From the IMG/VR virus record IMGVR_UViG_3300035190_000748, positions 1-28,762 of that record: 28,762 bases of DNA; one strand, given 5' to 3'. How positions within the stretch are numbered: the first letter of the stretch is position 1; every line of letters begins with the position of its first letter. The DNA is from a virus. The notes under the pieces were generated by a model that searched no databases, was not told the origin of the DNA, and saw only the letters and a program-made list of their open reading frames with translations. The position numbers and the translations under genes are program-made. Shown here piece after piece: positions 853 to 25,865 of this stretch.

Positions 853-861
853 TGTTATAAT
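853..861 (+). promoter_or_regulatory. Extended -10 promoter, leaderless layout (ATG 868)
   Basis: TGtTATAAT ends 6 nt before ATG 868, the same geometry as many promoters in this window. TCAAACC motifs at 831 and 845 overlap the -35 side, so it may be controlled by the protein that binds the repeats. Confidence 0.55.
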
Positions 862-867
862 GGTTTT

Positions 868-1092
868 ATGGGAAGAGATCATTTTGCTCAGCTATCTAGA
901 CAAACCTCTCATCGCCATGATCAACCACATGATATAGAAACCTTCAATAAAGACTTTGGTGCTATATGTGGTATGTTGTATAGTGTTATAACTCTTAAGT
1001 GTTTCTTTCCTAAGTTCCCCGCCCAAAACGTGACTAATAATCCTGTCAGTGATTCTGCGGGACGGTATATACAAGAACAACTACCACTCTAA
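868..1092 (+). CDS. Possible small protein inside the repeat region, 74 aa
   Basis: The frame runs from ATG 868 to TAA 1092. The case for it is its start: TGtTATAAT lies exactly 6 nt upstream, matching the leaderless rule seen at clearly real genes. The protein starts with a polar, His-rich stretch and has no recognisable domain, so coding potential is weak. The open frame extends upstream to 691, but that part overlaps repeats and is probably non-coding. It could be a small regulator of the adjacent repeats or a spurious frame. Apart from this gene, 655-1565 holds only repeats, promoters and DnaA boxes. Confidence 0.35.
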   Translation: MGRDHFAQLSRQTSHRHDQPHDIETFNKDFGAICGMLYSVITLKCFFPKFPAQNVTNNPVSDSAGRYIQEQLPL

Positions 1093-1242
1093 ATCCCTAT
1101 AGTATATAAGACATTACGATATCAAACCTTTTCTCCTGGTTTTTGATATCTTTTTAAATATTATCAAACCTTTATATAATATTATTGGACATTTCGGACG
1201 ATTTTGTATAGGGTTTTATATAAGGTTTGTAAGGTTTGATAC

Positions 1243-1271
1243 TTGACAAATGTGAGGTTTGGGTATATAAT
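1243..1271 (+). promoter_or_regulatory. Consensus sigma70-type promoter in the repeat region
   Basis: TTGACA (1243-1248), a 17-bp spacer and TATAAT (1266-1271) match both consensus hexamers. A GAGGTTTGG motif lies in the spacer, AAGGTTTGATA sits just upstream and two 22-bp repeats lie just downstream. No open frame follows for about 290 nt, so the transcript would be non-coding and would run through the AT-rich stretch and DnaA boxes. Confidence 0.75.
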
Positions 1272-1274
1272 GCA

Positions 1275-1315
1275 AGCCAGATGTAAGGTTTGATAAAGCC
1301 AGATGTAAGGTTTGA
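1275..1315 (+). repeat. Two 22-bp-spaced direct repeats (iteron-like)
   Basis: The 19-bp string AGCCAGATGTAAGGTTTGA is found at 1275-1293 and again at 1297-1315, a period of 22 bp or about two helical turns. A third partial copy of its 3' half follows at 1315. The spacing is typical of iterons bound by plasmid or phage initiators. Confidence 0.75.
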
Positions 1316-1441
1316 AGGTTTGGTATGTGAGGTTTTAAAGCCGTTGACATTACGGCCCCATCTGTATAAGAGCTCAATAACCCATTAGACATATTGAAAG
1401 TACATGTAAACCATATATAAAAAATATCAGTAAGATTTATA

Positions 1442-1516
1442 TGTGGATAACCTGTGGATAACTATGTGTAAAACCACTAATTTAGGCTATCCAAATTATC
1501 GTTTAGCTGTGGATAA
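1442..1516. other. Cluster of three perfect DnaA boxes, candidate replication origin
   Basis: TGTGGATAA, the complement of the classic DnaA box TTATCCACA, occurs at 1442-1450, 1453-1461 and 1508-1516, all in one orientation. The preceding 1370-1440 is very AT-rich and could be the unwinding element. With the iteron-like repeats and the strong promoter upstream, this is the best candidate for a replication origin in the window. DnaA boxes imply use of the host initiator; this is inference. Confidence 0.7.
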
Positions 1517-1550
1517 CTATAACACTTCTATATTCAATTGCGTATAGATG

Positions 1551-1559
1551 TGCTATCAT
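1551..1559 (+). promoter_or_regulatory. Extended -10 promoter, leaderless layout (ATG 1566)
   Basis: TGcTATCAT lies 6 nt before ATG 1566. No good -35 is visible and no Shine-Dalgarno precedes the gene, so the mRNA probably begins at the start codon. Confidence 0.6.
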
Positions 1560-1565
1560 TAACAT

Positions 1566-2108: not shown

Positions 2109-2193
2109 AAAACGGTACACGCTCTTAGGCTATTGGGCATATGGGCATATCCTTCTATAGGGGTTATTTACTATAGGGATTATGGTTTCTTAT

Positions 2194-2910: not shown

Positions 2911-4035
2911 TTAAAGACGATTGATCTGCTTATTGACGAACTCTAAAAATTTGCCCGTAATAAGTGCGAAACCTAATTCAGGCTTTGCACTGACGCATGC
3001 TGGACTTACTATATACTTTGCCCATTCCTTTACAGCTTCCTTGTTCTTGCCTGCTGTATCTGCTAGAAGGTAGGATACGATGCCTAGAGGGTATGCCCCA
3101 GGCTCTTTGGTGGAATAGTCATAGGTAAGTATGTTATTTGAGTCAATAGAGGCTTCTCCAAGGAATGCTGAGACATTTGCGCTGTTTGGCTCAACGAAGT
3201 TACCAGATGCATTACCTATATTTACTACCTTTAAGTTAAAGAACTTAGCAAAGGAAACTTCTGCATAAGTAATAGAGTACTTAGTCTTTGATGCAAGTGT
3301 TGCTACACCTTGTGACTGGTTTGCTCCAACAATTCTTCCCATGTTACCAATGTCATTTATATTCTTTGGAAATGATGTTGAGAATGAGTCAGACACTGGC
3401 TTTGTCCAAACCTCTGGTAGTGATGCCTTCATGTATCTAACAAAGTTATTTGTTGTTCCAGAGTTATCAAGTCTAAACACCACCTTGATCTTTTGATTGG
3501 GAAGTGTATATACAATACTCTTGGTTGCTATTCTTAATACTACTGGGTTGCCATACTTGTCTTTAACTAGATTACCAGACTTATCTTTTCTGTAAATAAC
3601 TTCTTTAATCTTTCTATTGTTATCAGCTTTAATAGCAGGATCATTCCACATTGTTATGTCCCCTGCAAAAATCTTAGCAATAGTGGTTGATGATAGATAA
3701 ACCTGTCTGTTACCTGGAAGGTTATGCATTACAGCAATAGGTGCTGCAACAACTGGTATGTGTATGATGGATGGCTTCTTAGTTGCTGCAGTGTGTGCTG
3801 AATCGGAGAACCAGAAATCACCAATGCCCTTGTCTGATGATGTCTTGCCAGCCCCAGAGCCATTTGGAGAGTATGTAACTACATTACCTGTTGACTTGGC
3901 ATAAGATGATCTGCATTCGTCAATAAGGTTTGCTGGAAAAGATGCTCCATTACCAACAATATTTTCTGCTGCAAAAGCAGGGGTAGAAATAGATAGAGCA
4001 GCAACGACTGCTATTACGATAAGTTTAAGTCTCAT
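2911..4035 (-). CDS. pstS: PstS-like phosphate-binding protein
   Basis: A 374-aa protein with a signal peptide ending near residue 23 (AFAA) and the PstS pattern. NGASFPANL is near 28-36 and NGSGAGKTSSDKGIGDF, the phosphate-loop region, near 57-73. The IFAGDITMWNDP motif near 128-139 is found in nearly all PstS proteins. Periplasmic or surface PstS feeds the Pst ABC transporter, and phage copies are known mainly from cyanophages as auxiliary genes for phosphate uptake during infection. No PstABC or PhoU gene is present, so it would work with host transporters. It is isolated on the minus strand and has its own leaderless-type promoter. Confidence 0.85.
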   Translation of the reverse strand: MRLKLIVIAVVAALSISTPAFAAENIVGNGASFPANLIDECRSSYAKSTGNVVTYSPNGSGAGKTSSDKGIGDFWFSDSAHTAATKKPSIIHIPVVAAPIAVMHNLPGNRQVYLSSTTIAKIFAGDITMWNDPAIKADNNRKIKEVIYRKDKSGNLVKDKYGNPVVLRIATKSIVYTLPNQKIKVVFRLDNSGTTNNFVRYMKASLPEVWTKPVSDSFSTSFPKNINDIGNMGRIVGANQSQGVATLASKTKYSITYAEVSFAKFFNLKVVNIGNASGNFVEPNSANVSAFLGEASIDSNNILTYDYSTKEPGAYPLGIVSYLLADTAGKNKEAVKEWAKYIVSPACVSAKPELGFALITGKFLEFVNKQINRL

Positions 4036-4041
4036 AATAAG

Positions 4042-4047
4042 AGTATA
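4042..4047 (-). promoter_or_regulatory. -10 element for the PstS-like gene, leaderless layout
   Basis: On the minus strand TATACT ends 6 nt before ATG 4035. There is no Shine-Dalgarno. The -35 side is weak (TTGCTA with a 19-bp spacer). No Pho-box-like repeat was recognised. Confidence 0.5.
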
Positions 4048-4135
4048 TAGTAAATAAACTATATTCTAGCAAACAATAGGCTCATTTAACCAAGTGTTCA
4101 TCTAATGTTTTATATACTGACATATAGCATAAGTA

Positions 4136-4144
4136 TGATACTAT
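4136..4144 (+). promoter_or_regulatory. Extended -10 promoter, leaderless layout (ATG 4151)
   Basis: TGaTACTAT ends 6 nt before ATG 4151. The -10 hexamer keeps the key T, A and final T positions. It is divergent from the PstS promoter about 90 bp away. Confidence 0.45.
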
Positions 4145-4150
4145 ATATAC

Positions 4151-4825
4151 ATGAAGCCAATCCTAAAGCCATTGATAGAAATTAATATTACAAACAATCA
4201 TAACGAATCCTTTACCCTTAAAACATTTGATCATGTTTCCTTGATAGTAGAGCACGAGCATGCATCTCTTAATAATTCTTTTGCTTTAAGATTTTGTGGT
4301 GATAAAGACAATGGAACCTATGTTGAGATTGGATCATCACACTGGGTTGAGGGAAACCATACATACATGCTTGAGAAAGAATTTGGATGGACAGGTGTAG
4401 GAATAGACATTGAAAAACACCATGCAGATAAATATAACGAAGCTAGGTCTAACCCATGCATAGAGGGTGATGCTACGACATTTAACTGGGATAAGTACTT
4501 TGAAGAAAATAACTTTCCAAATCAAATAGACTTTTTATCAATAGACACTGACGCATCAAACCTTTTATCACTAATAAATCTTCCATTGTCAAGATATAGA
4601 TTTTCTACTATTGTTTTAGAAAACAAAGAAAGCTCAAACCAAGCATTAGATATTGATGAAAAAGTAAAAAAAATACAACGAGAAATTCTTGCTAAATACA
4701 ACTATACACTCATTGGGTCTGGGTTTACAGATGATTTTTGGATAGATAATACATATCTTGATCTTCAAGGAAATCAGTGGGACCCCTTAGCCTTTGCTTT
4801 CTGGAATAAACTGATACACAACTAA
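4151..4825 (+). CDS. FkbM-family-like SAM methyltransferase
   Basis: A 224-aa protein with the FkbM (Methyltransf_21) signature. GTYVEIGSSHW near 55-65 is the SAM-binding loop, EFGWTGVGIDIEKH near 77-90 the acidic end of strand 2, and DFLSIDTDASNLL near 127-139 the motif preceding the substrate site. FkbM enzymes O-methylate sugars or natural products. A second related enzyme follows at 5001, separated by a tiny zinc protein. The two share the layout and the phrase FEENNFP, so they are probably paralogues. The substrate is likely a glycan, inferred from neighbouring glycosyltransferases. Confidence 0.75.
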   Translation: MKPILKPLIEINITNNHNESFTLKTFDHVSLIVEHEHASLNNSFALRFCGDKDNGTYVEIGSSHWVEGNHTYMLEKEFGWTGVGIDIEKHHADKYNEARSNPCIEGDATTFNWDKYFEENNFPNQIDFLSIDTDASNLLSLINLPLSRYRFSTIVLENKESSNQALDIDEKVKKIQREILAKYNYTLIGSGFTDDFWIDNTYLDLQGNQWDPLAFAFWNKLIHN

Positions 4826-4834: not shown

Positions 4835-4843
4835 TGGTATGAT
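4835..4843 (+). promoter_or_regulatory. Extended -10 promoter TGGTATGAT, leaderless layout (ATG 4850)
   Basis: TGgTATGAT ends 6 nt before ATG 4850. The same nonamer recurs before the genes at 8052 (minus) and 8106 (plus). A TACACA -35-like hexamer lies 17 bp upstream. Confidence 0.7.
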
Positions 4844-4849
4844 ATAGGT

Positions 4850-4975
4850 ATGAATAAAACAAAGTGCTTCTTTTGTGACAAAGAGGCTGCATACCTAGAC
4901 GTTGTGGTTAATCATGCAGACTACATAGTTGCAGACGTATGTGAAAAGCATTTACAAATGGGACTGTCTTCTTAA
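4850..4975 (+). CDS. Small C-x2-C...C-x2-H zinc protein, 41 aa
   Basis: ATG 4850 to TAA 4975, 41 codons, with a strong leaderless promoter. C6-x2-C9 and C31-x2-H34 form a four-ligand zinc site with about 20 residues between pairs. The same spacing is seen in the DUF7455-like protein at 21625-21855, so this may be a minimal member of that fold. It sits between two FkbM-type methyltransferase genes and may be cotranscribed with the second. Confidence 0.65.
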   Translation: MNKTKCFFCDKEAAYLDVVVNHADYIVADVCEKHLQMGLSS

Positions 4976-6241: not shown

Positions 6242-6270
6242 TTGACAAACAACATTGTAGTTGATATACT
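6242..6270 (+). promoter_or_regulatory. Consensus promoter, leaderless layout (ATG 6277)
   Basis: TTGACA (6242-6247), 17-bp spacer, TGaTATACT (6262-6270), then 6 nt to ATG 6277. This is the best-formed leaderless promoter in the window because both hexamers and the extended TG are present. Confidence 0.8.
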
Positions 6271-6276
6271 AATTAT

Positions 6277-6408
6277 ATGAAAGAACCAAGCATTATGAAA
6301 ATGGACTGGAAGGCTTTAGGGTATGAAAGAGAGTATAAAGATGGAAGACTCAGATGGGTTCCTCAGAATGTCACAGAAAATACAAAGGACAAAGATACTT
6401 CCTCTTAG
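6277..6408 (+). CDS. Hypothetical protein, 43 aa
   Basis: ATG 6277 to TAG 6408, initiated from a consensus leaderless promoter, which is the main evidence for it. The product is charged and polar with a basic-aromatic middle (KALGYEREYKDGRLRWVP), no membrane segment and no recognised family. Its 3' half overlaps the following gene in a different frame. Confidence 0.55.
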   Translation: MKEPSIMKMDWKALGYEREYKDGRLRWVPQNVTENTKDKDTSS

Positions 6409-6594: not shown

Positions 6595-6705
6595 ATGGGA
6601 TGTAATAAATGCGGTATGACAAAAGAAAATATATCCTACTGGGATACTCATCAGACTATGAGCGACTATAGCATTTGGTGTTTAAAGAAAGTTGTGGTAT
6701 TATAA
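6595..6705 (+). CDS. Tiny CxxC protein, 36 aa
   Basis: ATG 6595 to TAA 6705, 36 codons, beginning two bases after the preceding stop. C3-x2-C6 near the N-terminus and C29 could bind a metal as part of a dimer. The end overlaps the extended -10 promoter of the next gene. Function unknown; short length limits confidence. Confidence 0.45.
   Translation: MGCNKCGMTKENISYWDTHQTMSDYSIWCLKKVVVL
6695..6703 (+). promoter_or_regulatory. Extended -10 promoter TGGTATTAT, leaderless layout (ATG 6710)
   Basis: TGgTATTAT ends 6 nt before ATG 6710; TTGGTG lies 17 bp upstream as a weak -35. It supports ATG 6710 over an in-frame TTG at 6692. Confidence 0.65.
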
Positions 6706-6709
6706 AACT

Positions 6710-7408
6710 ATGGAAAAAACATACTTAGATGATAACAAAAAAATATGGGTTATAGAAAATTTTTTGACCCAAGAAGAAATAGACTGGTTTAAAGTTCAAA
6801 CGGATGATCCTAATGGTTGGTATGCTACCATGCGTTCTCCATATGGAAACATTTTAAATAAATTTTTAGATGTTTTACCAGTATACGATAATGAAGGAAA
6901 GATTGAATTTCCTAATCAATTTTCAAAGTCTATAGATCTTCCAGTATTTTCTAGTCCTGGAGGTATTTGGGAACGACTTGAGTCTGTCTTGCCAGAGGGA
7001 TATAGGAGGCATGCAACTCTTCAAACTTTTAAGTATATGACAGATGAAGAAATTCAGACTAACTTAAACCATGCATTCTTTGAGCCTTATAATACACCAG
7101 AAGTGACGATACAAAAAGACAAAATTGACTTTGCAATGTACTGGCATTATGATCCAGGATTGGAAAGTAACATTCTTATATCTTTTAGCTTATACCTAAA
7201 TGATGATTTTGACGGTGGAGAATTAGAGTTTGCAAACTTACCAATAAAAATAAAACCAAAGTCAGGAATGTTAGTTGGAATACCTGGTGGAGAGTTTTAT
7301 ACACACAGAGTTGCCAAAGTTCTTGGTCCAAACTCAAGGCATACTCTTTATGGCAATTCTTATGTAAATCCTCAGAGTGCTCCAATTAGCACTGCTGATG
7401 ACTGCTAA
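6710..7408 (+). CDS. P4H-like 2OG-Fe(II) oxygenase
   Basis: A 232-aa protein. YWHYDPG near 142-148 gives the H-x-D pair, LYLNDDFDGGELEF near 159-172 is the Gly-Gly turn typical of P4H-type dioxygenases, KSGMLVGIPG follows, THRV holds the distal His and SRHTLYG the 2-oxoglutarate Arg. All catalytic residues are visible. It differs clearly from the neighbour at 5579, so the two probably have different substrates. The N-terminal 120 residues are a separate cap region. Start chosen from the leaderless promoter. Confidence 0.75.
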   Translation: MEKTYLDDNKKIWVIENFLTQEEIDWFKVQTDDPNGWYATMRSPYGNILNKFLDVLPVYDNEGKIEFPNQFSKSIDLPVFSSPGGIWERLESVLPEGYRRHATLQTFKYMTDEEIQTNLNHAFFEPYNTPEVTIQKDKIDFAMYWHYDPGLESNILISFSLYLNDDFDGGELEFANLPIKIKPKSGMLVGIPGGEFYTHRVAKVLGPNSRHTLYGNSYVNPQSAPISTADDC

Positions 7409-7887: not shown

Positions 7888-8052
7888 TTAAAGATAAATA
7901 TCTTCAAGACATCTATTACAAAACCAGTCAGCTGAACCTGCAACCTTTCTAGAACCACCATAAACAACTTCATTATTGTCTACCTTATCAATTACTTCCC
8001 CATACATATATCCGTATACTATTGGTATTAGCCAGTGGTCGCATTCATACAT
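7888..8052 (-). CDS. Small zinc-ribbon-like protein, 54 aa
   Basis: The start is set at ATG 8052 because TGgTATGAT lies exactly 6 nt upstream; a longer frame from 8115 would overlap the divergent gene. The protein begins YECDHWLIPIVYG and ends WFCNRC, a Cys-His near the N-terminus paired with C-x2-C near the C-terminus. The C-x-H-W...PIVYG...C-x2-C pattern recalls uncharacterised proteins found in actinobacteria and their phages. Probably a zinc ribbon; function unknown. Confidence 0.7.
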   Translation of the reverse strand: MYECDHWLIPIVYGYMYGEVIDKVDNNEVVYGGSRKVAGSADWFCNRCLEDIYL

Positions 8053-8058
8053 ACAATA

Positions 8059-8067
8059 ATCATACCA
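8059..8067 (-). promoter_or_regulatory. Extended -10 promoter TGGTATGAT (minus), ATG 8052
   Basis: On the minus strand TGgTATGAT (8067 down to 8059) is followed by 6 nt and ATG 8052. It is divergent from the identical plus-strand element at 8091-8099. Confidence 0.7.
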
Positions 8068-8090: not shown

Positions 8091-8099
8091 TGGTATGAT
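8091..8099 (+). promoter_or_regulatory. Extended -10 promoter TGGTATGAT (plus), ATG 8106
   Basis: TGgTATGAT is followed by 6 nt and ATG 8106; TTGCAT at 8071-8076 is 17 bp upstream. This is one of three identical nonamers at this spacing in the window. Confidence 0.75.
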
Positions 8100-8105
8100 T
8101 GACAT

Positions 8106-8333
8106 ATGGAAACAAATGGGTGGACTAAAGACTTAGATGATGAACAAAAGGCCTACGTTATGGACCTAGTTATCACTACAGTCAAAGAAATTAGAGAGCA
8201 GATTGCTCAAGATATTGAGGCAACTGTTCCTGTTTGGCAAGGCTTGGGTTTTATGAAGAGTCGTAGAACAAAGGCTGCATTTAAAGTATGTGCTGCAATT
8301 GCAAGAGGACAAAATGAAAGGGTACCTATATAA
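8106..8333 (+). CDS. Hypothetical helical protein, 75 aa
   Basis: A 75-aa, largely helical, charged protein with no recognised motif. It begins directly at a leaderless promoter and its TAA overlaps the ATG of the next gene by one base (TAATG), so the three genes 8106, 8333 and 8563 form a coupled unit. The two following genes encode membrane proteins. Confidence 0.7.
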   Translation: METNGWTKDLDDEQKAYVMDLVITTVKEIREQIAQDIEATVPVWQGLGFMKSRRTKAAFKVCAAIARGQNERVPI

Positions 8334-8675: not shown

Positions 8676-8749
8676 GCTCCAGTAGCTCAGTTGGTTAGAG
8701 CCCCAAACTCATAATTTGGTCGTCGTAGGTTCAAGTCCTACCTGGTGCA
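8676..8749 (+). tRNA. tRNA-Met (CAU anticodon)
   Basis: A full cloverleaf can be drawn: acceptor GCTCCAG/CTGGTGC (one T-T mismatch at pair 3-70), D arm GCTC...GAGC, anticodon arm CCAAA-CTCATAA-TTTGG with CAT, and T arm GTAGG-TTCAAGT-CCTAC. No CCA is encoded. A CAU tRNA could be Met or lysidine-modified Ile. Because an Ile(UAU) tRNA is present at 9876, Met is the simpler call. Confidence 0.85.
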
Positions 8750-8788
8750 CAAGATCTGTTTATAGATCTACTTATATAAGGAGAATAA

Positions 8789-9325
8789 ATGAAAACTGTA
8801 GGAGAAAAACTTGGTAACTTTGCCGTTACTGGAGTTAAACCTGGGGCACTATCTTATGATGATTCCTCATTTGAAGTACTAACACAAGATTCTTTTCCAG
8901 GCAAATGGAAGATTATTGTATTCTATCCAAAGGACTTTACATTTGTATGCCCAACAGAAATTGTTGCATATGATGCACTTGTAAATGATTTCAATGATCG
9001 TGATGCAGTCCTTATGACTGGATCAGTTGATAACGAGTTCTGTAAGGTTGCATGGAGAAATGCACATGATGATCTAAAGAAGACAAACTCATGGGCATTT
9101 GCAGACACAGCACATCAGTTAGCTGGAGACCTTGGTGTTCATCATTCATCTGGTGTTACATATCGTGCAACATTTATTGTTGATCCAGAAAACACTATTC
9201 AACACATTACAGTAAATAATCTTGATGTTGGTCGTAATGCAGATGAGGCTCTTCGTGTGCTTGATGCACTACAAACAGGAGAGCTTTGTGCATGCAATAG
9301 ACCTCTTGGAGGAGAGACTCTATAA
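8789..9325 (+). CDS. ahpC: Peroxiredoxin AhpC
   Basis: A 178-aa typical 2-Cys peroxiredoxin that reduces hydrogen peroxide, organic peroxides and peroxynitrite in the cytoplasm. YPKDFTFVCPTEI holds the peroxidatic Cys at residue 54, and CACNRPLGG at the C-terminus (C167, C169) supplies the resolving Cys, as in actinobacterial AhpC. The ribosome site AAGGAG is strong. AGATCT occurs twice (8752 and 8764), forming a 6-bp hairpin in the leader. The stop overlaps the ahpD start (TAATG). The ahpC-ahpD order is the mycobacterial arrangement, where AhpD recycles AhpC in place of AhpF. A host-derived auxiliary gene is likely. Confidence 0.93.
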   Translation: MKTVGEKLGNFAVTGVKPGALSYDDSSFEVLTQDSFPGKWKIIVFYPKDFTFVCPTEIVAYDALVNDFNDRDAVLMTGSVDNEFCKVAWRNAHDDLKKTNSWAFADTAHQLAGDLGVHHSSGVTYRATFIVDPENTIQHITVNNLDVGRNADEALRVLDALQTGELCACNRPLGGETL

Positions 9326-9837
9326 TGTCTTGGGTTGATCAGCTTAAGGAAAACCTTCCAGAGTATGCAAAGGACATTAAGTTAAATCTTGATGCAGTAA
9401 TTAATAGATCATCTATTGATCCTGATCATGCTACATACCTTGCTTTAGCAGCAGCATTTTCCACAGGCAATGGCAAGCTTGTTGCTTTTATTACAGCAAG
9501 TGCAACTGATCAAGTAGAACGAGATGCAGCATTAACTGCTGGTGCAATCATGGCACAAAACAATGTTTGGTATCCATACTTAGAAATGGCAGATGATGCT
9601 AACCTAACTGGACTACCAGCACAACTTCGTATGAATGCAATTGCATCTCATGGTGGTACAACAAAGGGCAAGTTTGAGGCATACTCTCTTGCTTCATCTA
9701 TTGTTGGTAAGTGTCACTTCTGTGTTAAAGCACACTATGAAACATTGAAAGAAGAAGGCTATACAGTTGAACAGTTGCGTGATATCGGAAGAATTGCAGC
9801 AACAGTTAATGCATTAGCAAAGATACTTTCAGCTTAG
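9325..9837 (+). CDS. ahpD: Alkylhydroperoxidase AhpD
   Basis: A 170-aa CMD-fold protein translated by coupling to ahpC. The catalytic set E118, C130-x2-C133 and H137 is in place, at the same numbers as I recall for the mycobacterial enzyme. AhpD reduces oxidised AhpC and is itself reduced by lipoyl proteins (in Mycobacterium through SucB and Lpd). The phage therefore carries the two dedicated proteins and relies on the host for lipoamide and its reductase. Two tRNA genes follow. Confidence 0.93.
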   Translation: MSWVDQLKENLPEYAKDIKLNLDAVINRSSIDPDHATYLALAAAFSTGNGKLVAFITASATDQVERDAALTAGAIMAQNNVWYPYLEMADDANLTGLPAQLRMNAIASHGGTTKGKFEAYSLASSIVGKCHFCVKAHYETLKEEGYTVEQLRDIGRIAATVNALAKILSA

Positions 9838-9875
9838 CAAAAGTCCTGGGTATGACTAAAACTGCCTAACTTTAA

Positions 9876-9952
9876 ACATCTGTAACTCAGTTGGTTAGAG
9901 TACCTGCCTTATATGCAGAGAGCCGTAGGTTCAAGTCCTACCAGATGTACCA
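9876..9952 (+). tRNA. tRNA-Ile (UAU anticodon), CCA encoded
   Basis: Acceptor ACATCTG/CAGATGT pairs perfectly. The D arm is ACTC...GAGT, the anticodon arm CCTGC-CTTATAT-GCAGA carries TAT (closing pair mismatched) and the T arm is GTAGG-TTCAAGT-CCTAC. The discriminator A is followed by CCA at 9950-9952. A UAU-Ile tRNA reads AUA, a codon frequent in this AT-rich phage; most bacteria use a lysidine tRNA for it. Confidence 0.9.
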
Positions 9953-9953
9953 A

Positions 9954-10025
9954 GCCTTTATAGCTCAGCGGAAGAGCGGACGGTTTCTACCCGTTAGGTC
10001 GGAGGTTCAAATCCTTCTAAGGGCG
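9954..10025 (+). tRNA. tRNA-Arg (UCU anticodon)
   Basis: Acceptor GCCTTTA/TAAGGGC, D arm GCTC...GAGC, anticodon arm GACGG-TTTCTAC-CCGTT with TCT, T arm GGAGG-TTCAAAT-CCTTC. It reads AGA and AGG. It starts one base after the CCA of tRNA-Ile, so the two are cotranscribed. Its last 9 nt overlap the stop codon and end of the minus-strand methyltransferase gene. A T-run (CTTTTT) follows and may end transcription. Confidence 0.9.
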
Positions 10026-10598
10026 CTTTTTAATGTATACATCTGCATACATGTTTTCTTGTAATGCAAAACCAATAACTTCCCAGTCTTTGTTTTGATC
10101 TAAAAATTCACACACAACTTCAATAACACCGTAGTCTACTCCATGATCTTGGTCTACTATATAGTCGTTAAACCCAATGATTCCATCTTCCGCTAAAAGC
10201 AAAAGGGAATTAATTAAATCAGTTTTACAGTGATTGTAGTCATGGTTAGCATCAATGTAAATATAGTCAAACTTTTTATCAAGTGTTGGCATAATGTCAT
10301 CACTATATCCTCTATGATAAGTAATAGTTTTAACATTCTTAAATCTATTTTTTACAAAATCAAAATGTCCTGCTTTATTAAACCTATTGCAGTCAGGCCA
10401 ATCGTTGGCTTTAAACACGTCTACAAGGTCAATAGAGACTGGATTAACTTCTTTTATAAGTACTTCTGCATAGTCTCCAGCAAGTGTGCCTATCTCAAGT
10501 ATTCTTGATCCCTTTGGTATGTGCTTGGCAAATTCTTCTTTGCTTGTAAAAAGTCTTGCATTATTTAGCTGATCTTGTGATATAGTTTTAATAGGCAT
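10017..10598 (-). CDS. Class I SAM methyltransferase (Methyltransf_24-like)
   Basis: A 193-aa Rossmann methyltransferase. RILEIGTLAGDYAEVL near 32-47 is the SAM loop, DLVDVF near 57-62 the acidic end of strand 2, FDYIYIDANHDY near 110-121 the motif that gives Methyltransf_24 proteins their D-x-x-H signature, and IIGFNDYI the next strand. Such enzymes are often encoded in glycan clusters. A divergent protein of the same family begins 40 bp away. Its start fits a leaderless promoter, and its 3' end overlaps tRNA-Arg. Confidence 0.8.
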   Translation of the reverse strand: MPIKTISQDQLNNARLFTSKEEFAKHIPKGSRILEIGTLAGDYAEVLIKEVNPVSIDLVDVFKANDWPDCNRFNKAGHFDFVKNRFKNVKTITYHRGYSDDIMPTLDKKFDYIYIDANHDYNHCKTDLINSLLLLAEDGIIGFNDYIVDQDHGVDYGVIEVVCEFLDQNKDWEVIGFALQENMYADVYIKKRP

Positions 10599-10604
10599 AA
10601 GCCT

Positions 10605-10613
10605 AGTATATCA
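10605..10613 (-). promoter_or_regulatory. Extended -10 promoter, leaderless layout (ATG 10598)
   Basis: On the minus strand TGaTATACT (10613 down to 10605) ends 6 nt before ATG 10598. Only 12 bp separate it from the plus-strand TATAAT at 10626, so the two polymerases must compete. Confidence 0.65.
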
Positions 10614-10625: not shown

Positions 10626-10631
10626 TATAAT
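10626..10631 (+). promoter_or_regulatory. -10 element TATAAT for ATG 10639
   Basis: TATAAT ends 7 nt before ATG 10639. The in-frame ATG at 10630 overlaps this hexamer and is unlikely to be in the mRNA, so 10639 is preferred. Confidence 0.6.
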
Positions 10632-10638
10632 GATATAC

Positions 10639-11214
10639 ATGGGGTATCCAAATTGGTTTAATATAAGTGCCGTTAAATATTTTGATTTAATCTTACCACG
10701 CAGGTTTGCAGGTAAACCACTCATAGACTTTCTACAGATAGGTGCGTACACTGGTGATGCTAGTGAATGGATGTTAGATAATATACTTACAGATCCAACT
10801 TCATGGCTTACTGATGTTGATACCTGGTCTGGGTCTGAAGAAGAAGCACACAAGAAATTTGACTGGAATGAACTTGAACAGTTTTATGATAGCAGAATGT
10901 CTGCTTATACAAATGTATGTAAAGTTAAAGGGTACTCTGAAGAGTTCCTTAATACCGCTGAGAAATCACACTATGATTTTATATACATAGATGGCGATCA
11001 TACTGCACATGGAGTATATACAGATGCAATACTTGGCTGGGATAAGCTAAAAATTAATGGGATAATGGCATTTGATGACTACCTATGGCAACATGATACA
11101 TACCAGGAACACCTTAGACCTAAGCCAGGAATAGATAGGTTTTTACAAGAGCATAGTGGTAAATATCAGATACTGATTATGGATGAGCAAGTTTGGATAT
11201 TAAAGCATGAGTAA
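10639..11214 (+). CDS. Class I SAM methyltransferase (Methyltransf_24-like)
   Basis: A 191-aa protein with FLQIGAYTGDASEWML near 28-43 (SAM loop), DFIYIDGDHTAHGVYTD near 113-129 (the D-x-D-H signature) and IMAFDDYLW near 139-147. It is related in layout to the divergent gene at 10017-10598. It overlaps the following glycosyltransferase by 8 nt, so methylation of a glycan is plausible. The start is chosen by the -10 element; ATG 10630 would add three residues. Confidence 0.8.
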   Translation: MGYPNWFNISAVKYFDLILPRRFAGKPLIDFLQIGAYTGDASEWMLDNILTDPTSWLTDVDTWSGSEEEAHKKFDWNELEQFYDSRMSAYTNVCKVKGYSEEFLNTAEKSHYDFIYIDGDHTAHGVYTDAILGWDKLKINGIMAFDDYLWQHDTYQEHLRPKPGIDRFLQEHSGKYQILIMDEQVWILKHE

Positions 11215-12682: not shown

Positions 12683-13377
12683 ACAAACTTGTTGTAAAAA
12701 TATTCTATTGCAGAACCTTTAGGAAGATCGTTCTTGTCAATGCCTTCTCTATTTAAGAATTGATTCCATATCTGCAGTGTGTGTGAATACTTACACTTTT
12801 CTAAGACTTCTTCTAGGTGTTCACTCATCCAAATCTTCTTCCATTGCCAAAAATGAATTGGATAGAAAACCTTTGGTTGCTGTGCATATCTCAAAAGCCC
12901 AAGCTTTTTAGCACACTTGGTTACAAGTAGTGGACCTATTTCTGACCAAACTATCTTTGTCTTATCATAATTAACTGAATTATCTATTAGCATATTAACA
13001 AGGTTAGAGTCTTGTGGCATTCTTAATATGCCGTTTGCAAGTCGTCCCTCTTCTTCATAGCCAAACAGATAATCTCCAAAATCCCATTTATGCCTAAGAC
13101 ATATAGAGTCTGTATCAGTCCATGTAAGTCCTGTCTTTTGTATCATTGTATATCTAAACATATCAGCAAACGGTCCATATGAATTCTGTATTGTAAAAAT
13201 CTCAGACTCAGGAATTATTTTATTTGCATCTTCTTTTACTACACCTTTTGGAACCTTCATGTCCATGTCATAAACAAACAGGGTAAAGGAATGACCATAA
13301 TATATAAATGAAGCAAGAGCTGTTTGTTCAACCTTACTTAAAGGATTGCCTATCCACAAAGATCCAAAATCAGCCAT
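12679..13377 (-). CDS. DXD sugar transferase (Gly_transf_sug/A4GALT-like)
   Basis: A 232-aa protein starting SLWIGNPLSKVEQTALASF, the N-terminal strand and helix of GT32/alpha-1,4-glycosyltransferase-type enzymes. The DXD metal and nucleotide-sugar motif (TWTDTDSICLR) lies near residues 84-94. No membrane segment is seen, so it is cytoplasmic. Its stop overlaps the end of the GT25 gene by 4 nt on the opposite strand. An AGGA element about 7 nt before the ATG is its ribosome site. The acceptor is unknown. Confidence 0.75.
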   Translation of the reverse strand: MADFGSLWIGNPLSKVEQTALASFIYYGHSFTLFVYDMDMKVPKGVVKEDANKIIPESEIFTIQNSYGPFADMFRYTMIQKTGLTWTDTDSICLRHKWDFGDYLFGYEEEGRLANGILRMPQDSNLVNMLIDNSVNYDKTKIVWSEIGPLLVTKCAKKLGLLRYAQQPKVFYPIHFWQWKKIWMSEHLEEVLEKCKYSHTLQIWNQFLNREGIDKNDLPKGSAIEYFYNKFV

Positions 13378-13394
13378 GAGTATATCCTATCATA

Positions 13395-14513: not shown

Positions 14514-14818
14514 TAAACATCCTTCTTTCCATCATCTACAAAATTAAAGACTTCCTCAAGTGATTCCCAACCTAGATCTTCTTTTATTTCTAGTGCTGCA
14601 AGAAAAATATCCCACGTTTCATATACATATTGCTTTGCAAGCTTGCTTGGCTCTACAAGTTCATTGTCAATTAAAAATGCAATGGGCAAACCAATATCAT
14701 TATATTCAATAAAGTCTTTAAAGTATTTGTCAGACTTATAGTCCATCCACAAGTCTCCAAGTATTGAACAGATTGCTTCAAAACTAGTTACTACTTCTCC
14801 ATTGTTAGAGATTTCCAC
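14513..14818 (-). CDS. Acidic hypothetical protein, 101 aa, GTG start
   Basis: A very acidic, aromatic-rich protein with no recognised domain. The start is GTG 14818, inside the 3' end of the WhiB gene (28-nt overlap), with GGTGAG as ribosome site. No later in-frame ATG gives a sensible protein. An acidic small protein beside a regulator could be a DNA mimic, but nothing in the sequence shows that. Confidence 0.65.
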   Translation of the reverse strand: MEISNNGEVVTSFEAICSILGDLWMDYKSDKYFKDFIEYNDIGLPIAFLIDNELVEPSKLAKQYVYETWDIFLAALEIKEDLGWESLEEVFNFVDDGKKDV

Positions 14819-15075
14819 ATCTCACCCCACTGTTCTTTTGTTCTATGTTTGCTAAACTCTCTGGATATCTCACCATTTTCTAAGTATATGCCTCCCCATA
14901 CTCCCCACTCTTTTCCTGACACGCCATTTGCAAAACATGTTTTTTGAACAGGGCAAGACTTGCATAAGGTGTCTATTGATACTCTTACAAGCTCATTATC
15001 TTCATAGTGATCAAAAAATAAATTAGTATCAGAATCAAAACAGGCACCAGTATCTTTCCATAAGTGTTGTTTCAT
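14791..15075 (-). CDS. WhiB-family iron-sulfur regulator
   Basis: A 94-aa protein with the four conserved cysteines C12, C38-x2-C41 and C47 (C-x25-C-x2-C-x5-C), which bind a 4Fe-4S cluster, followed by the WGVWGG turn near 57-62 and a basic C-terminal region. This architecture is specific to actinobacteria and their phages. WhiB-like proteins bind the primary sigma factor and alter promoter choice, sensing redox state. In mycobacteriophage TM4 a WhiB homologue acts as a dominant negative of host WhiB2; a host-takeover role here is inference. Confidence 0.92.
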   Translation of the reverse strand: MKQHLWKDTGACFDSDTNLFFDHYEDNELVRVSIDTLCKSCPVQKTCFANGVSGKEWGVWGGIYLENGEISREFSKHRTKEQWGEMWKSLTMEK

Positions 15076-16172: not shown

Positions 16173-17155
16173 TACTTTTCACCCTCTTGTTTTGTATTAA
16201 ATATATGAGTTAGTGATTCTGCTCTTGTATAATCCTTACCAAAGTCAGCAAACAATGCCTTATCTTTTTCACGATTAACAATTCCTCTTGACCATGAGAA
16301 ACCTGCATCCCCACCCCATGCAAGCCACATTATGTATCCATTAGATGGGTTAGCTGTGTTTCCCCAGTCTTTGCCCTTCTTATCTACTTCGTGGCGTGAG
16401 AAGTATGAGTACATTCTTTTAACAGTACTAAGAGAAATAGTTTCTCCTCTTGCCAGCTGACCTGCACGAGTCCAACCAACTGCAGTTCCTGCACCAGTTG
16501 CCTTACCATCTTCTTTAAACTTAATTGCTCTACGAGCTGCAGATCTTGCTCCTGCTGGTGGTGAGTACCCATCTGCTTTTGAAACTGTATCTGTTTCATA
16601 TTCAACTGTGTCGTCATCTTCAAACAGATCGTCTGCTTTTGCAGCAGGAACACAGTTAGGAACCCTCTTCCCATCTTTTCCTGGCTTCATTCCACGCTGT
16701 ACATATCCATCCCAGCAAGGAGCTTGCTTGTTCATTTCATCTTTACAAACTGGACAGTCTGGACAATCAACATCTAATTCTTTGCATGTTTCACATCCAC
16801 AACCTTGATATGCTTTATCAATTGAGGTACTTTCTGGGCAACAGTGAGACTTGCCAATTGATGCGTCATACATTGCTATTTCAACTTCTGAATCCATTTC
16901 ATGTCCTTCCAGACTATCAAGTCTTGTTGCATCCATATACATCATCCCAATACTATAAGCAGTCTCTTCCCACTTACCGTCTTCTTGCTCATACATCCTG
17001 ACAGACATAGCTGGGTTGTCTGGTGGCATTGACTCAAGGGCATACTCAGAACCAGGGGTTCCTAGTGTTCCACCCTCTATCATAATGTGTTCTACCCTAC
17101 CATGAACCATGCCTTCTTTGGTCATGCCCATTACAAAATCGCCTTCTTTTATCAT
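16172..17155 (-). CDS. Phage head-associated conserved protein, 327 aa
   Basis: Three regions are visible. Residues 1-85 form a small beta-rich domain (GDFVMGMTKEGMVHGRVEHI). Residues about 100-150 are cysteine-rich (several C-x2-C pairs), suggesting metal binding. Residues about 197-300 contain PPAGARSAARRAIKF, GTAVGWTRAGQLARG, VKRMYSYFSRHEVDK and GYIMWLAWGGDAGFSW. The last region is a conserved module that I recall from phage head-maturation or portal-linked proteins. A structural or morphogenesis role is likely, but the exact role is unknown. First gene of an eleven-gene transcript. Confidence 0.7.
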   Translation of the reverse strand: MIKEGDFVMGMTKEGMVHGRVEHIMIEGGTLGTPGSEYALESMPPDNPAMSVRMYEQEDGKWEETAYSIGMMYMDATRLDSLEGHEMDSEVEIAMYDASIGKSHCCPESTSIDKAYQGCGCETCKELDVDCPDCPVCKDEMNKQAPCWDGYVQRGMKPGKDGKRVPNCVPAAKADDLFEDDDTVEYETDTVSKADGYSPPAGARSAARRAIKFKEDGKATGAGTAVGWTRAGQLARGETISLSTVKRMYSYFSRHEVDKKGKDWGNTANPSNGYIMWLAWGGDAGFSWSRGIVNREKDKALFADFGKDYTRAESLTHIFNTKQEGEK

Positions 17156-17161
17156 ATACTG

Positions 17162-17170
17162 ATTATATCA
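17162..17170 (-). promoter_or_regulatory. Extended -10 promoter TGATATAAT, leaderless layout (ATG 17155)
   Basis: On the minus strand TGaTATAAT (17170 down to 17162) ends 6 nt before ATG 17155. No clear -35. It starts the transcript that ends at the terminator near 13410. Confidence 0.7.
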
Positions 17171-22952: not shown

Positions 22953-22982
22953 ATTATAGCACTAGGAGGCTTTGTGTGTCAA
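22953..22982 (-). promoter_or_regulatory. Consensus promoter for the endolysin transcript
   Basis: On the minus strand TTGACA (22982 down to 22977), an 18-bp spacer and TATAAT (22958 down to 22953) match both consensus hexamers. The leader is about 20 nt with a full Shine-Dalgarno. The -35 lies inside the end of the HNH gene. Genes overlap or nearly abut from here to 17207, so this promoter may drive all of them. Confidence 0.85.
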
Positions 22983-23258: not shown

Positions 23259-24041
23259 TTAACTATTTTCAGGATTTATAATAGATTTTTTTCCAGCAAT
23301 TAGTGATTCTATTTCTTTACAAACCACTTCATACTCTTCTTCAAATATTTTCTTAGATCTTCCAGGACCAACGTCTATAGGTATTCCTGCTTTTTCCGCA
23401 GCTTCTTTAACACCCTTTTCAGAATCATAATTTAAAACAGTGCACTGATACCATTTAGAGATGTACCCATCTTTATCAATGAGATACTTTTCAAAGTTTC
23501 CGCCTTGCTCACCACCACATGCCTGATCCATGTTTAGCCAGTACGAGTAGTATTCCTTTTTATTTATAATGCCCAAATCTTTTTCTTTATTGGCAATATT
23601 ATTCATATGGTTTTTAACTTCTTTATACAGTTCATGAGGTTCTTGTCTTGGTTGACCTAAACCATTTACAGTTGTGTCCCCGTTATGAGGATTAAGCTCA
23701 TTTACAGACATGTTTGGATTTGATGCCACCATTTCTGAAAACTGAAAGGTAGTTCCATAAACATCTCTTCCATACTCTTGTGAATCTAATCCACAAGTAA
23801 TTCCTTGTGACCACTTTCCATGAGTAATTCCAGGACCACAATAATCATTGGTTGGGATAGCAATAACTTGGAAGTCATCTCCACCATACTTATCTTGAAG
23901 CCATTGTAGGATTTCCATTTGGTTAGCATTGCCACAACCAACTGTTGTGTTTACTAATAGTCCAACCTTGCCTTTAAACTGATCTAAGAAGTTCGGCGCA
24001 TCTTCAGCCGAGTTAAGAGGGATTGAGTAGATGGGTTTCAT
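23259..24041 (-). CDS. Glutathione-peroxidase-like protein
   Basis: A 260-aa protein of the GPx/thioredoxin fold. KGKVGLLVNTTVGCGNANQ near 23-41 places the peroxidatic Cys at C36 where the family has Cys or Sec, VIAIPTNDYCGPG near 59-71 matches the NQF-G strand, and YGTTFQFSEMV and NFEKYLIDKDG follow. An insertion of about 70 residues and the lack of the usual Trp before NFEKY set it apart from normal GPx (about 160 aa). It would reduce peroxides using thioredoxin. ATG 24041 is fixed by a leaderless promoter; a longer frame from 24113 crosses the structured RNA and is rejected. Confidence 0.72.
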   Translation of the reverse strand: MKPIYSIPLNSAEDAPNFLDQFKGKVGLLVNTTVGCGNANQMEILQWLQDKYGGDDFQVIAIPTNDYCGPGITHGKWSQGITCGLDSQEYGRDVYGTTFQFSEMVASNPNMSVNELNPHNGDTTVNGLGQPRQEPHELYKEVKNHMNNIANKEKDLGIINKKEYYSYWLNMDQACGGEQGGNFEKYLIDKDGYISKWYQCTVLNYDSEKGVKEAAEKAGIPIDVGPGRSKKIFEEEYEVVCKEIESLIAGKKSIINPENS

Positions 24042-24047
24042 GTAATT

Positions 24048-24056
24048 ATTATAGCA
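24048..24056 (-). promoter_or_regulatory. Extended -10 promoter TGCTATAAT, leaderless layout (ATG 24041)
   Basis: On the minus strand TGcTATAAT (24056 down to 24048) ends 6 nt before ATG 24041. It starts only 4 nt after the T-run that ends the structured element at 24067-24149. Confidence 0.7.
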
Positions 24057-24149: not shown

Positions 24150-24163
24150 ACATTTATATTGTA

Positions 24164-24595
24164 CTACTTGATTTTGATTGTCTTAGGCTTCTTCTCTTCT
24201 GGAACAACACGATCAATACTAATATTGAGCATACCGTCCTTTAGATCTGCCCCAGTCACTTCCATGTATTCACCAAGAGCAAATGATCGCACAAACTTGC
24301 GACCAGCAATTCCCTTATGAACAACTTCGGCATCTGTAACATCTACAATCTCACCCTTAATTACAAGAGTTCCATTTTCAACTATTACTGAAATATCATC
24401 TCTAGTAAAACCTGCAATAGCAAGTGATAGCTTGTATGTATCTTCATCTAGTTTAAGAAGATCATATGGAGGATATGACTGTGAATTTATTTTATGTAAA
24501 CTATCTAAACGGCTTAAGTCTCTATTAAAGCCAATAAAAAATGGATCATTGAAAAAATTTCCAAAAGATCCGTTATATGTATATGATGCTACCAT
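24164..24595 (-). CDS. Hsp20-family small heat-shock protein (IbpA-like)
   Basis: A 143-aa protein. Residues about 40-135 form the alpha-crystallin domain: YPPYDLLKLDEDTYKLSLAI, then GFTRDDISVIVENGTLVIKG, RKFVRSFALGEYMEV and DGMLNISIDR, followed by an I-x-I tail (TIKIK). The N-terminal arm has NDPFFIGFNRD, as in IbpA-type proteins. It is an ATP-independent holdase that keeps unfolding proteins soluble. Hsp20 genes are also known in cyanophages. It has AAAGGGG as ribosome site and a leader of about 50 nt. Confidence 0.92.
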   Translation of the reverse strand: MVASYTYNGSFGNFFNDPFFIGFNRDLSRLDSLHKINSQSYPPYDLLKLDEDTYKLSLAIAGFTRDDISVIVENGTLVIKGEIVDVTDAEVVHKGIAGRKFVRSFALGEYMEVTGADLKDGMLNISIDRVVPEEKKPKTIKIK

Positions 24596-24650
24596 TTTAT
24601 TCCCCTTTCAAGCGAATAAGTTAGTGTACCCCCGTAGGCAGTACATATAT

Positions 24651-24659
24651 ATTATATCA
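24651..24659 (-). promoter_or_regulatory. Extended -10 promoter for hsp20
   Basis: On the minus strand TGaTATAAT (24659 down to 24651) lies between tRNA-Asn and the Hsp20 gene. Transcription would begin near 24644, giving a leader of about 49 nt with a ribosome site, unlike the leaderless promoters. Confidence 0.65.
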
Positions 24660-24667
24660 AACTTTTG

Positions 24668-24740
24668 CTGGTCTGGCAAGACTTGAACTTGCGACATGGG
24701 CATTAACAGTGCCCCGCTCTGCCAACTGAGCTACAGACCA
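24668..24740 (-). tRNA. tRNA-Asn (GUU anticodon)
   Basis: The cloverleaf has acceptor TGGTCTG/CAGACCA, D arm GCTC...GAGC, anticodon arm GGGCA-CTGTTAA-TGCCC with GTT, and T arm GCAAG-TTCAAGT-CTTGC. The discriminator is G and no CCA is encoded. It lies between the subtilase and Hsp20 genes on the same strand. Confidence 0.92.
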
Positions 24741-24747
24741 AACTCTT

Positions 24748-25611
24748 TTACTTAGAGATGTAAGGATATCCCAATACATTTACCAACTTTGAAGCAAAGT
24801 CAGAAAAAGTTTTATCATTAGACTTTAAGTATGATGCTGCGGAAAGTACTGTTGCTCCTGAAGTTGAATTTGTTGAGCCAGGTGTACCGTTATATCTAAC
24901 AATAGAGATATCTCCTGGAGCAACTAAATCAAGTCCAGGCCCTCTGTTTGTAGTTCCGTCAAAGTTATTGTATACAGTTGGAGTTTTTGGAAATGCTGCA
25001 AGTGCACCAACACCAATCACACCATTAACACAAGATGGGAATCCAACTATTGTTTGTGATTTGTTATTTCCTGTAGCAGCAAAAGTTGGAATATTTTGTG
25101 CATTTAAAGATGAAATAGCATTAATAGTTTTTACATCAGAAGAACACGCCAACAGGTTATTCTTTGACGTTCCTGACTGACTAATAGAAACAGCGTCAAT
25201 ACTATATTTTGATGCATTCTTTGATACCCAGTCAATTGCTAAAGACAAAGACTGTGGTTGGTTTCCTGAGTTTCCTGCTGCTGAAATATCTGCAATTCTA
25301 ACAAATACAATCTTAATGTTTGGGTTAATTGCTAAAGCTGCCTGTGTCATATTGTAACCATGATATGTATCGTTACGAATATCTGCTGGCCATGCTGTAG
25401 AATTAGCTGACCCAACACCCTCCATAAAGGCTGTTTTGTTTGGACAAGATCTATTTACAGTAAAGCATGCTTCGTAAATTACTGCAGGAATCTTTTTTGA
25501 ATCAATTGCTGTGTCAATAATTGCTAAGACCTTTTGATCTTGTGCATGTGCTGGCTCAACTGCCAATAGTGCAAGTACTGCTGATAGTGCTACGATTACT
25601 AGTTTCTTCAT
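24748..25611 (-). CDS. Secreted subtilisin-like serine protease (S8)
   Basis: A 287-aa protein with a Sec signal peptide (cleavage near AHA, residue 23). The triad is visible: D33 in AIIDTAID, H84 in YHGYNMTQAAL, and S251 in STSGATVLSAA. The oxyanion Asn is N182 in AATGNNKSQ, and a LVAPGDI strand lies at 229-235. There is no propeptide domain and the enzyme is compact. It has AAGGGG as ribosome site. A phage-encoded secreted protease may act on host surface proteins or on virion proteins outside the membrane. It is unusual in tailed phages. Confidence 0.85.
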   Translation of the reverse strand: MKKLVIVALSAVLALLAVEPAHAQDQKVLAIIDTAIDSKKIPAVIYEACFTVNRSCPNKTAFMEGVGSANSTAWPADIRNDTYHGYNMTQAALAINPNIKIVFVRIADISAAGNSGNQPQSLSLAIDWVSKNASKYSIDAVSISQSGTSKNNLLACSSDVKTINAISSLNAQNIPTFAATGNNKSQTIVGFPSCVNGVIGVGALAAFPKTPTVYNNFDGTTNRGPGLDLVAPGDISIVRYNGTPGSTNSTSGATVLSAASYLKSNDKTFSDFASKLVNVLGYPYISK

Positions 25612-25631
25612 TTTATTACCCCTTTTATTTT

Positions 25632-25853
25632 TTATTGTTGTATGATTTTAAAAACTACTTGGCATGGGTCTCCGCCTTGCTCCCACTCTTGCATTTCTTC
25701 ATCTGTCATGTAACTATCACCTTCGTGTGTGTTACAAAATGGTGGAGATATCCACTTACGCTTGATACCGTTTTCCATCCAGATTTCAAATTCATCATAG
25801 TCAGACTCTAATGCCTGAATATCTTTTAGTATTTCATCAAACTCTTCGTCCAT
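25632..25853 (-). CDS. Hypothetical acidic protein, 73 aa
   Basis: A very acidic N-terminal helix (MDEEFDEILKDIQALESDYD) is followed by PPFCNTHEG and, near the C-terminus, GDPCQVVFKII. C40, H43 and C64 could bind a metal. It has a leaderless promoter (TATACT 6 nt before the ATG). I recall similar Cys-His proteins from actinobacterial phages; function unknown. It sits upstream of the subtilase. Confidence 0.65.
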   Translation of the reverse strand: MDEEFDEILKDIQALESDYDEFEIWMENGIKRKWISPPFCNTHEGDSYMTDEEMQEWEQGGDPCQVVFKIIQQ

Positions 25854-25859
25854 AATATA

Positions 25860-25865
25860 AGTATA
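25860..25865 (-). promoter_or_regulatory. -10 element TATACT, leaderless layout (ATG 25853)
   Basis: On the minus strand TATACT (25865 down to 25860) ends 6 nt before ATG 25853. No extended TG. It overlaps the last codons of the HslV-like gene region. Confidence 0.55.

Follow-up and report, generated by a model that had tools for sequence, protein, structure and literature searches.

A conserved six-nucleotide spacing between -10 hexamers and start codons points to leaderless expression in a probable actinophage

Introduction

The 28,762-nucleotide (nt) stretch analysed here (the window; positions 1 to 28,762 of IMG/VR virus record IMGVR_UViG_3300035190_000748) carries, before many genes on both strands, a promoter-like -10 hexamer of the form TANNNT that ends six nucleotides before the ATG. 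This layout, called N6 below (Nk for a spacer of k nucleotides), raises the question whether transcription starts at the start codon itself, giving messenger RNAs without a leader and without a Shine-Dalgarno (SD) sequence. The original prediction, made from the letters of the window, proposed such an arrangement as a phage-wide rule.

A similar arrangement is known from cells. In TA-led genes of Actinobacteria and Deinococcus-Thermus, TANNNT precedes the start codon by about 12 bp, counted from its first T, or by 6-7 bp, and the -10 element of leaderless genes was tested experimentally in Deinococcus (PMC3160421; PMC12340547). The spacing is published for actinobacteria and is thus not peculiar to this phage. 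A 5' ATG or GTG is described as necessary and sufficient for leaderless translation in mycobacteria (PMC4633059).

Results

N6 spacing in the window

Judged by sequence comparison, the N6 layout is genuine and conserved and belongs to a known type, and it is dense for a phage in so far as the papers listed allow a comparison. The window contains 17 copies of TGNTANNNT-N6-ATG on its two strands, whereas 200 dinucleotide shuffles gave 2.43 on average and never more than 7. The scan over spacers gave one sharp peak at k = 6, as the original prediction expected, with all other k from 0 to 25 at 7 or below. At ATGs opening frames of at least 60 amino acids (aa), nine such matches were found at N6 versus 0.03 in shuffles (maximum 1), the other spacers from 0 to 25 giving at most 3. 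Genes are headed by 12 of the 17 strict matches; the remaining five (1412, 6720 and 18222 on the minus strand, 22468 and 23446 on the plus strand) head no gene, with 2.4 expected by chance. When the TG requirement is dropped, TANNNT has no N6 peak over all ATGs (40 at N6, where about 34 are expected, and 44 at both N16 and N20) and peaks at N6 at the long-frame ATGs (16; next highest 8).

Per Mb, TGNTANNAT-N6-ATG occurs 452 times in the window, compared with 119 and 102 times in two related phage records, G002 (109 kb) and G003 (108 kb), and no more than 24 times in any of the 65 high-count actinobacterial genomes of a 198-genome survey. Since its density is far above that of G002 and G003, the window is a rich stretch, atypical of a whole genome.

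Unit-leading genes and leadered promoters

Among 54 hand-curated open reading frames, a hexamer at N6 was found before 15 of 29 unit-leading and 1 of 25 internal genes (Fisher p 0.0002), a unit-leading gene having an opposite-strand neighbour or a gap of at least 15 nt. Two choices lean towards N6 in this count: the 15 admit the GACAAT hexamer of start 2229 (14/29 without it), and the starts 8052, 24041, 10639 and 6710 were set by us.

A -35/-10 score with hand-set consensus weights, chosen after seeing the sites and not fitted to them, placed 14 intergenic promoter-like sites at 10.5 or above among those up to 60 nt from a start on the same strand. N6 accounts for eleven of them, and the rest lie at 25, 26 and 55 nt. 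The three best-scoring sites are leadered, all on the minus strand: TGCTATAAT with TTGACA at 22953-22961 (top score), its hexamer 25 nt before the lysin (CHAP) start 22927; TGATATAAT at 24651-24659, 55 nt before the Hsp20 start 24595; and TGGTATACT with TTGACA at 26414-26422, 26 nt before the HslV-like start 26387. With 15 of 29 unit-leading genes covered and the three strongest promoters leadered, the rule is not phage-wide. As to the ribosome sites that the original prediction assigned to these three genes, the upstream is SD-like in 27/28 relatives for the lysin and in 8/14 for Hsp20, and by our motif the HslV site is weak (5/38). Genes also contain promoter-like sites at different distances from a start, such as those lying 20, 24 and 52 nt ahead of 14282, 21062 and 15287. 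Judging by these positions, two modes appear to coexist, a hexamer at N6 or a leader of about 18 nt or more.

Conservation in relatives

Relatives were drawn from 166 viral loci found by three scans with window proteins (66, 80 and 20 loci, contigs partly shared), plus 15 stretches. For the families of the 14 TANNNT-N6 genes and of 10639 (2229 was not counted), we took the distinct upstreams of tblastn-aligned ATG starts, non-ATG rows being dropped before the total of 173; control rows without ATG, GTG or TTG were dropped before their total of 442. The families hold 1-47 rows; one nearly identical record contributes its copy to the 173, and rows from close relatives lack independence. TANNNT stood at N6 in 144 of the 173 rows, at N7 in 16, at N5 in 1 and at none of these in 12 (six in the 6277 family, five in 17155, one in 24041), most of which resemble other gene contexts. 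In 28 control genes it stood at N6 in 17 of 442 rows.

Conservation of the hexamer exceeds that of its surroundings. Pairs from seven families, selected for less than 55% identity at -50 to -16, had mean identities of 0.31-0.50 in that flank, 0.36-0.71 in the spacer (-6 to -2) and 0.74-1.00 in the hexamer. Because the filter dictates three of the hexamer positions, independent evidence comes from the remaining three, from the TG and chiefly from position -1. Strict N6 starts with frames of at least 40 aa number 14 in G002 and 10 in G003. Of these, 7 and 5 belong to genes that have no homologue in the window, so other genes use the layout too.

Promoter type, start base and start codon

An extended TG, described as usual in the original prediction, precedes the hexamer at 13 of the 15 N6 starts of the window, 13377 and 2229 included; 4035 and 25853 are without it. 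TG is present in every N6 row of the 868, 4850, 8106, 8052 and 17155 families. The 25853 family never has TG and carries a -35-like site in 23/23 rows, and 12 of 13 N6 rows of the 6277 family have such a site as well.

Position -1, which lies outside the filter, is a pyrimidine at a frequency of 0.99 (N6 family mean) versus 0.35 in controls, as expected if transcription begins at the A of the ATG. The start sites mapped in Mycobacterium tuberculosis most frequently have C at -1 and T at +2 (PMC3898074), a preference that ATG fits by providing A(+1)T(+2). SD-like motifs are at zero in 11 of 14 N6 families versus 8 of 28 control families (mean 0.10 versus 0.30). ATG is the start codon in all 143 N6 rows from the 14 families, while the controls include 19 GTG and 7 TTG among 442. 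Neither GTG nor TTG was found at N6 in the window, G002 or G003, which is weak evidence since both are rare there at every spacer.

Individual starts

Reading letter by letter the 14 starts for which N6 had been proposed, we found TANNNT at 13; start 2229 has the right spacing and the hexamer GACAAT. On the plus strand, the extended -10 TGTTATAAT precedes ATG 868 (74 aa; 853-870) and keeps N6 in 6/6 distinct relative upstreams. An inverted repeat, AAACCAT-N6-ATGGTTT, surrounds this -10 (window 840-870) and is possibly an operator; relatives keep CAAACCATGTTATAAT, some without the right arm. TGCTATCAT before ATG 1566 (180 aa; 1551-1568) rests on direct reading and a single ATG-aligned relative. 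TGAGACAAT before ATG 2229 (52 aa; 2214-2231), with one relative whose protein is 100% identical, is the weakest member of the set; TGATACTAT before ATG 4151 (224 aa; 4136-4153) also has one relative, again with a 100% identical protein. ATG 4850 (41 aa; 4835-4852) follows TGGTATGAT, with N6 in 16/17 and N5 in 1/17 upstreams. ATG 6277 (43 aa; 6262-6279) follows TGATATACT with a -35 TTGACA at N17; its ATG rows have N6 in 13/20 and N7 in 1/20, and the remaining 6/20 lack a promoter-like upstream and resemble other gene contexts. N6 is kept in 2/2 rows for TGGTATTAT before ATG 6710 (232 aa; 6695-6712) and in 5/5 for TGGTATGAT before ATG 8106 (75 aa; 8091-8108), which is divergent from 8052. TATAAT before ATG 10639 (191 aa, Methyltransf_24 by Pfam; 10626-10641), divergent from 10598, ends 7 nt from the start as originally read (relatives: N7 3/4, N6 1/4). 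For 23237, also named as a possible N7 case, the window has TANNNT at neither N6 nor N7, and the spacers are scattered over 30 relatives; we therefore reject it as a member of the set.

On the minus strand, TATACT without TG precedes ATG 4035 (374 aa; 4033-4050), N6 being kept in 18/18 rows. TGGTATGAT precedes ATG 8052 (54 aa; 8050-8067; 5/5) and TGATATACT precedes ATG 10598 (193 aa, Methyltransf_24 by Pfam; 10596-10613; 3/3). The start codons of the divergent pairs 8052/8106 and 10598/10639 are 53 and 40 nt apart, so that the paired promoters should overlap. ATG 13377 (232 aa, Gb3_synth-type glycosyltransferase by Pfam; 13375-13392), behind TGATAGGAT, is an N6 case that the first reading had overlooked; both relatives keep N6 and both are also SD-like. 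TGATATAAT before ATG 17155 (327 aa; 17153-17170) has N6 in 14/19 ATG rows, the other five resembling alignments within other genes. ATG 24041 (260 aa, GSHPx-like by Pfam; 24039-24056) follows TGCTATAAT, with N6 in 34/47 and N7 in 12/47 rows. TATACT without TG precedes ATG 25853 (73 aa; 25851-25868), with N6 kept in 23/23 rows; its -35 TTGACA, at N17, falls inside the 3' end of the upstream HslV-like gene.

The corrected starts proposed for 8052, 24041 and 10639 are consistent with the relatives: at 24041 the ATG is kept and the preceding sequence has diverged (47 ATG rows), the other two having 5 and 4 rows. The queries were trimmed at the proposed starts, and the longer forms were therefore tested only in part.

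Comparison genomes

Phage T4 (1-50 kb, 34% GC) has 0 matches at N6, and Grayson (80-130 kb) has no clear peak, with 2 strict matches at N6. Thermus phage P23-45 (1-50 kb), the intended positive control, has 0 strict N6 matches and supports nothing. Streptomyces phage LilMartin has a small N6 peak at 1-50 kb (3 strict, other spacers at most 2); its 82-132 kb, which partly repeat the left end, give 1 strict match at N6 and 2 at N7.

A pattern match was present in 156 of the 198 actinobacterial genomes surveyed. Among the 65 with high counts, 63 exceeded the reversed-pattern control, a figure on which nothing was rested. Comparison of N5 to N8 in 12 of these genomes showed that this control is too lenient: N6 was highest in 7 and not in the other 5 (N5-N8 counts 7, 33, 13 and 11 in G052; 58, 32, 39 and 45 in G141). 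These 12 were selected for high N6 counts or excess and therefore give no estimate of frequency. Some Actinobacteria genomes appear from these counts to share the N6 spacing, consistent with the part of PMC3160421 cited above.

Lineage and host

The phage probably infects an actinobacterium, since it carries a WhiB gene (14791-15075; Pfam match 2.4e-11). A profile search found WhiB in 15 of the 16 phage records. Upstream of the WhiB gene itself, 5 of 24 relatives carry TANNNT at N6 and the window does not; by this pattern the gene possibly switches between leaderless and internal expression across relatives. Two records of about 100 kb, L101/G007 and L128/G009, have three WhiB matches each and no N6 excess.

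No near-identity match to the window record was found among named phages. Two window proteins have their best matches in cyanophages, from which an aquatic origin may be guessed. Genes of G002 that lie outside the window, encoding portal, DnaE-type polymerase (DnaE) and head protease, are closest to Streptomyces phages (about 38-55% identity): identity to LilMartin is 45.8% for the portal and 52.3% for DnaE, and for the protease identity to Streptomyces phages reaches 41.4%. The LilMartin record alone gives the family as Stanwilliamsviridae, to which G002 may be related by these best matches.

Pfam scanning placed an AhpC-like gene next to a CMD-domain (AhpD-like) gene at 8789-9837. In cellular genomes the lowest E-value for the AhpC-like protein was in an Actinomycetota metagenome-assembled genome, L190/G016 (64% identity), the other matches being mostly Proteobacteria; the HslV-like gene had no relative in the genome contigs searched. 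L190/G016 has no N6 excess (21 versus 45 in the reversed control) and is therefore not established as the host; in its order, 12 of 31 genomes match a narrower pattern.

Discussion

We consider it highly probable that the 14 TANNNT-N6 starts, probably together with 2229 and 10639, represent promoters of the host primary-sigma type fused to the start codon, giving leaderless mRNAs. A promoter at a fixed distance from the start codon implies that the mRNA should begin at that codon. The layout, its statistics and its conservation are direct observations, and from them we infer the start site, the sigma factor and the ribosome mode. By computation, the leaderless reading of the original prediction is well supported by the N6 peak, the kept spacing, the pyrimidine at -1, the scarcity of SD-like motifs, the exclusive use of ATG and the absence of N6 matches in T4 1-50 kb. 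A primary-type host sigma factor would recognise the extended -10 (TGN) in most cases and a TTGACA-assisted -10 in some. RNA polymerase would melt the hexamer and start at the pyrimidine-A step 7 nt beyond it, the first transcribed A being the first base of the ATG, so that the mRNA would have no leader. Host 70S ribosomes would then begin at the 5'-terminal AUG without SD pairing, in a mycobacteria-like manner, while the lysin, Hsp20 and similar genes would use leadered transcripts alongside.

Several results weigh against this reading. About half of the unit-leading genes are off the N6 rule. The raw pool of loci, ungrouped by gene, gives 252 matches at N6, 210 at N2 and 177 at N8 (113 at N6, 44 at N1 and 38 at N7 for frames of at least 60 aa). 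N6 leads N7 by a narrow margin at such frames in G002 (8 versus 5) and G003 (7 versus 6), and in G007 and G009, found through the GSHPx-like gene, N6 is at the level of the reversed pattern (3 versus 5 and 2 versus 2). By our patterns, 18/18 rows of the 4035 family and 17/34 N6 rows of the 24041 family have neither TG nor a -35-like site. SD-like stretches occur in both 13377 rows, in 0.30 of the 25853 rows and in part of the 24041 family, and absence of SD is weak evidence in any case since 8 of 28 control families are also free of it. The conservation at 25853 is confounded, because its promoter overlaps the upstream HslV-like coding sequence.

Other explanations differ in how they fare. A chance spacing in AT-rich DNA, with the ATG picked to fit, would agree with the frequency of TANNNT alone at all spacings, where 40 at N6 over all ATGs compares with about 34 expected, and with the 5 of 17 strict matches that head no gene. 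We reject it in view of the 17 matches to TGNTANNNT versus 2.4 (none of 200 shuffles above 7), the lack of N6 matches in T4 1-50 kb and the spacing kept in relatives. If the -10 promoters are real and transcription starts a few nucleotides off (leaders of 1-5 nt), or longer transcripts arrive from upstream, leaderless initiation would be minor. The N7 spacing at 10639 and in 12/47 rows of 24041 fits this, as do the promoter-like sites further upstream of some genes; a start exactly at the A is favoured by the pyrimidine that 99% of N6 rows have at -1, and with the SD-like motif at zero in 11/14 N6 families we hold this alternative to be very unlikely.

The extended -10 without a -35 could also form a phage-specific class that depends on a phage sigma factor or a WhiB-altered host polymerase, which would be compatible with leaderless initiation. 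TG is found at 13 of 15 N6 starts versus 7% of the TANNNT promoters described for M. tuberculosis (PMC3898074), WhiB is present in 15/16 records, and two cultured Nanopelagicales phages are reported to carry WhiB and a sigma-70 factor (PMC10202952). Sigma70_r2 (PF04542) had no match in any of the 16 phage records, several of them above 100 kb, a test that a remote sigma factor may escape. Members with a -35 have identical spacing (25853, 6277), and G011, possibly a fragment, has 12 pattern matches (control 4) with no WhiB detected. We regard a phage-specific class as unlikely, and it is unlikely on these profile searches that a phage sigma factor reads these promoters; WhiB may influence them. 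We also entertain the idea, which seems decidedly unlikely, that in this phage lineage much of the accessory region consists of self-contained modules, each with a 15-nt promoter fused to a start codon. A moved gene would then be expressed at once by host sigma factor and 70S ribosomes without SD pairing, and the genes would perhaps be translatable after removal of the anti-SD by a toxin or under limiting initiation factors.

The window resembles TA-led genes in its positionally peaked TANNNT, its spacing and its lack of SD (PMC3160421; PMC12340547). TA-led genes are described as cellular (more than 20%, and nearly a third in D. radiodurans), whereas the present genes belong to a phage, have TG at 13 of 15 starts and use only ATG as far as seen. 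Leaderless transcripts of M. tuberculosis and M. smegmatis share TANNNT, the pyrimidine at -1 and the sufficiency of a 5' ATG, and differ in that GTG works too and TGN is rare (7%), while here GTG was not seen and TGN is common (PMC3898074, PMC4633059).

Among phages, cluster O mycobacteriophages such as Corndog, compared here by published description and not by sequence, have the predicted leaderless SigA-like promoters PL1 and PR2, with PL2 organised similarly (PMC4351075), and Adephagia has P90, a predicted leaderless SigA-like promoter (PMC11373665). As proposed here, their transcripts are predicted to begin with the start codon's first base, and PL1/PR2 form a divergent pair; the descriptions name 1-3 such promoters per genome, whereas we find about 15 in 29 kb, with the spacing traced across relatives (PMC4351075; PMC11373665). 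Leaderless mRNAs are known in lambda and P2, in an E. coli setting, and the portion of PMC4633059 cited describes no fixed multi-gene layout for them. LilMartin is alike in its small N6 peak and differs in its GC content (49-50%) and its few N6 starts. Novelty is reduced by the AR9 paper, which in the part cited calls phage transcripts 'often leaderless' in a Bacillus setting and likewise gives no fixed multi-gene layout (PMC5312081). No description of such a dense fixed arrangement in a single phage was found among the matches listed in open-licence PMC, as far as titles and the opening lines of abstracts tell. The spacing itself is already published for Actinobacteria and Deinococcus-Thermus; what is new here is the density, the conservation and the lineage.

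The N6 rule helps to place start codons in uncultured actinophages, as at 8052, 24041, 10639 and 6710, which differ from the longest frame. With it, leaderless expression in actinophages would reach beyond a few predicted promoters to a set that is dense and conserved, and the dependence of these phages on host leaderless initiation becomes testable.

Additional features of the window

A long intergenic stretch (1100-1560) contains AGGTTTG / CAAACCT repeats beside three TGTGGATAA sequences, which we take to be DnaA-box-like, and is a possible replication origin. A low-complexity frame of 394 codons, rich in A, E and K, lies at 26928-28112 on the minus strand. Four tRNA genes, Met(CAT), Ile(TAT), Arg(TCT) and Asn(GTT), were found at 8676-10026 and 24667-24740.

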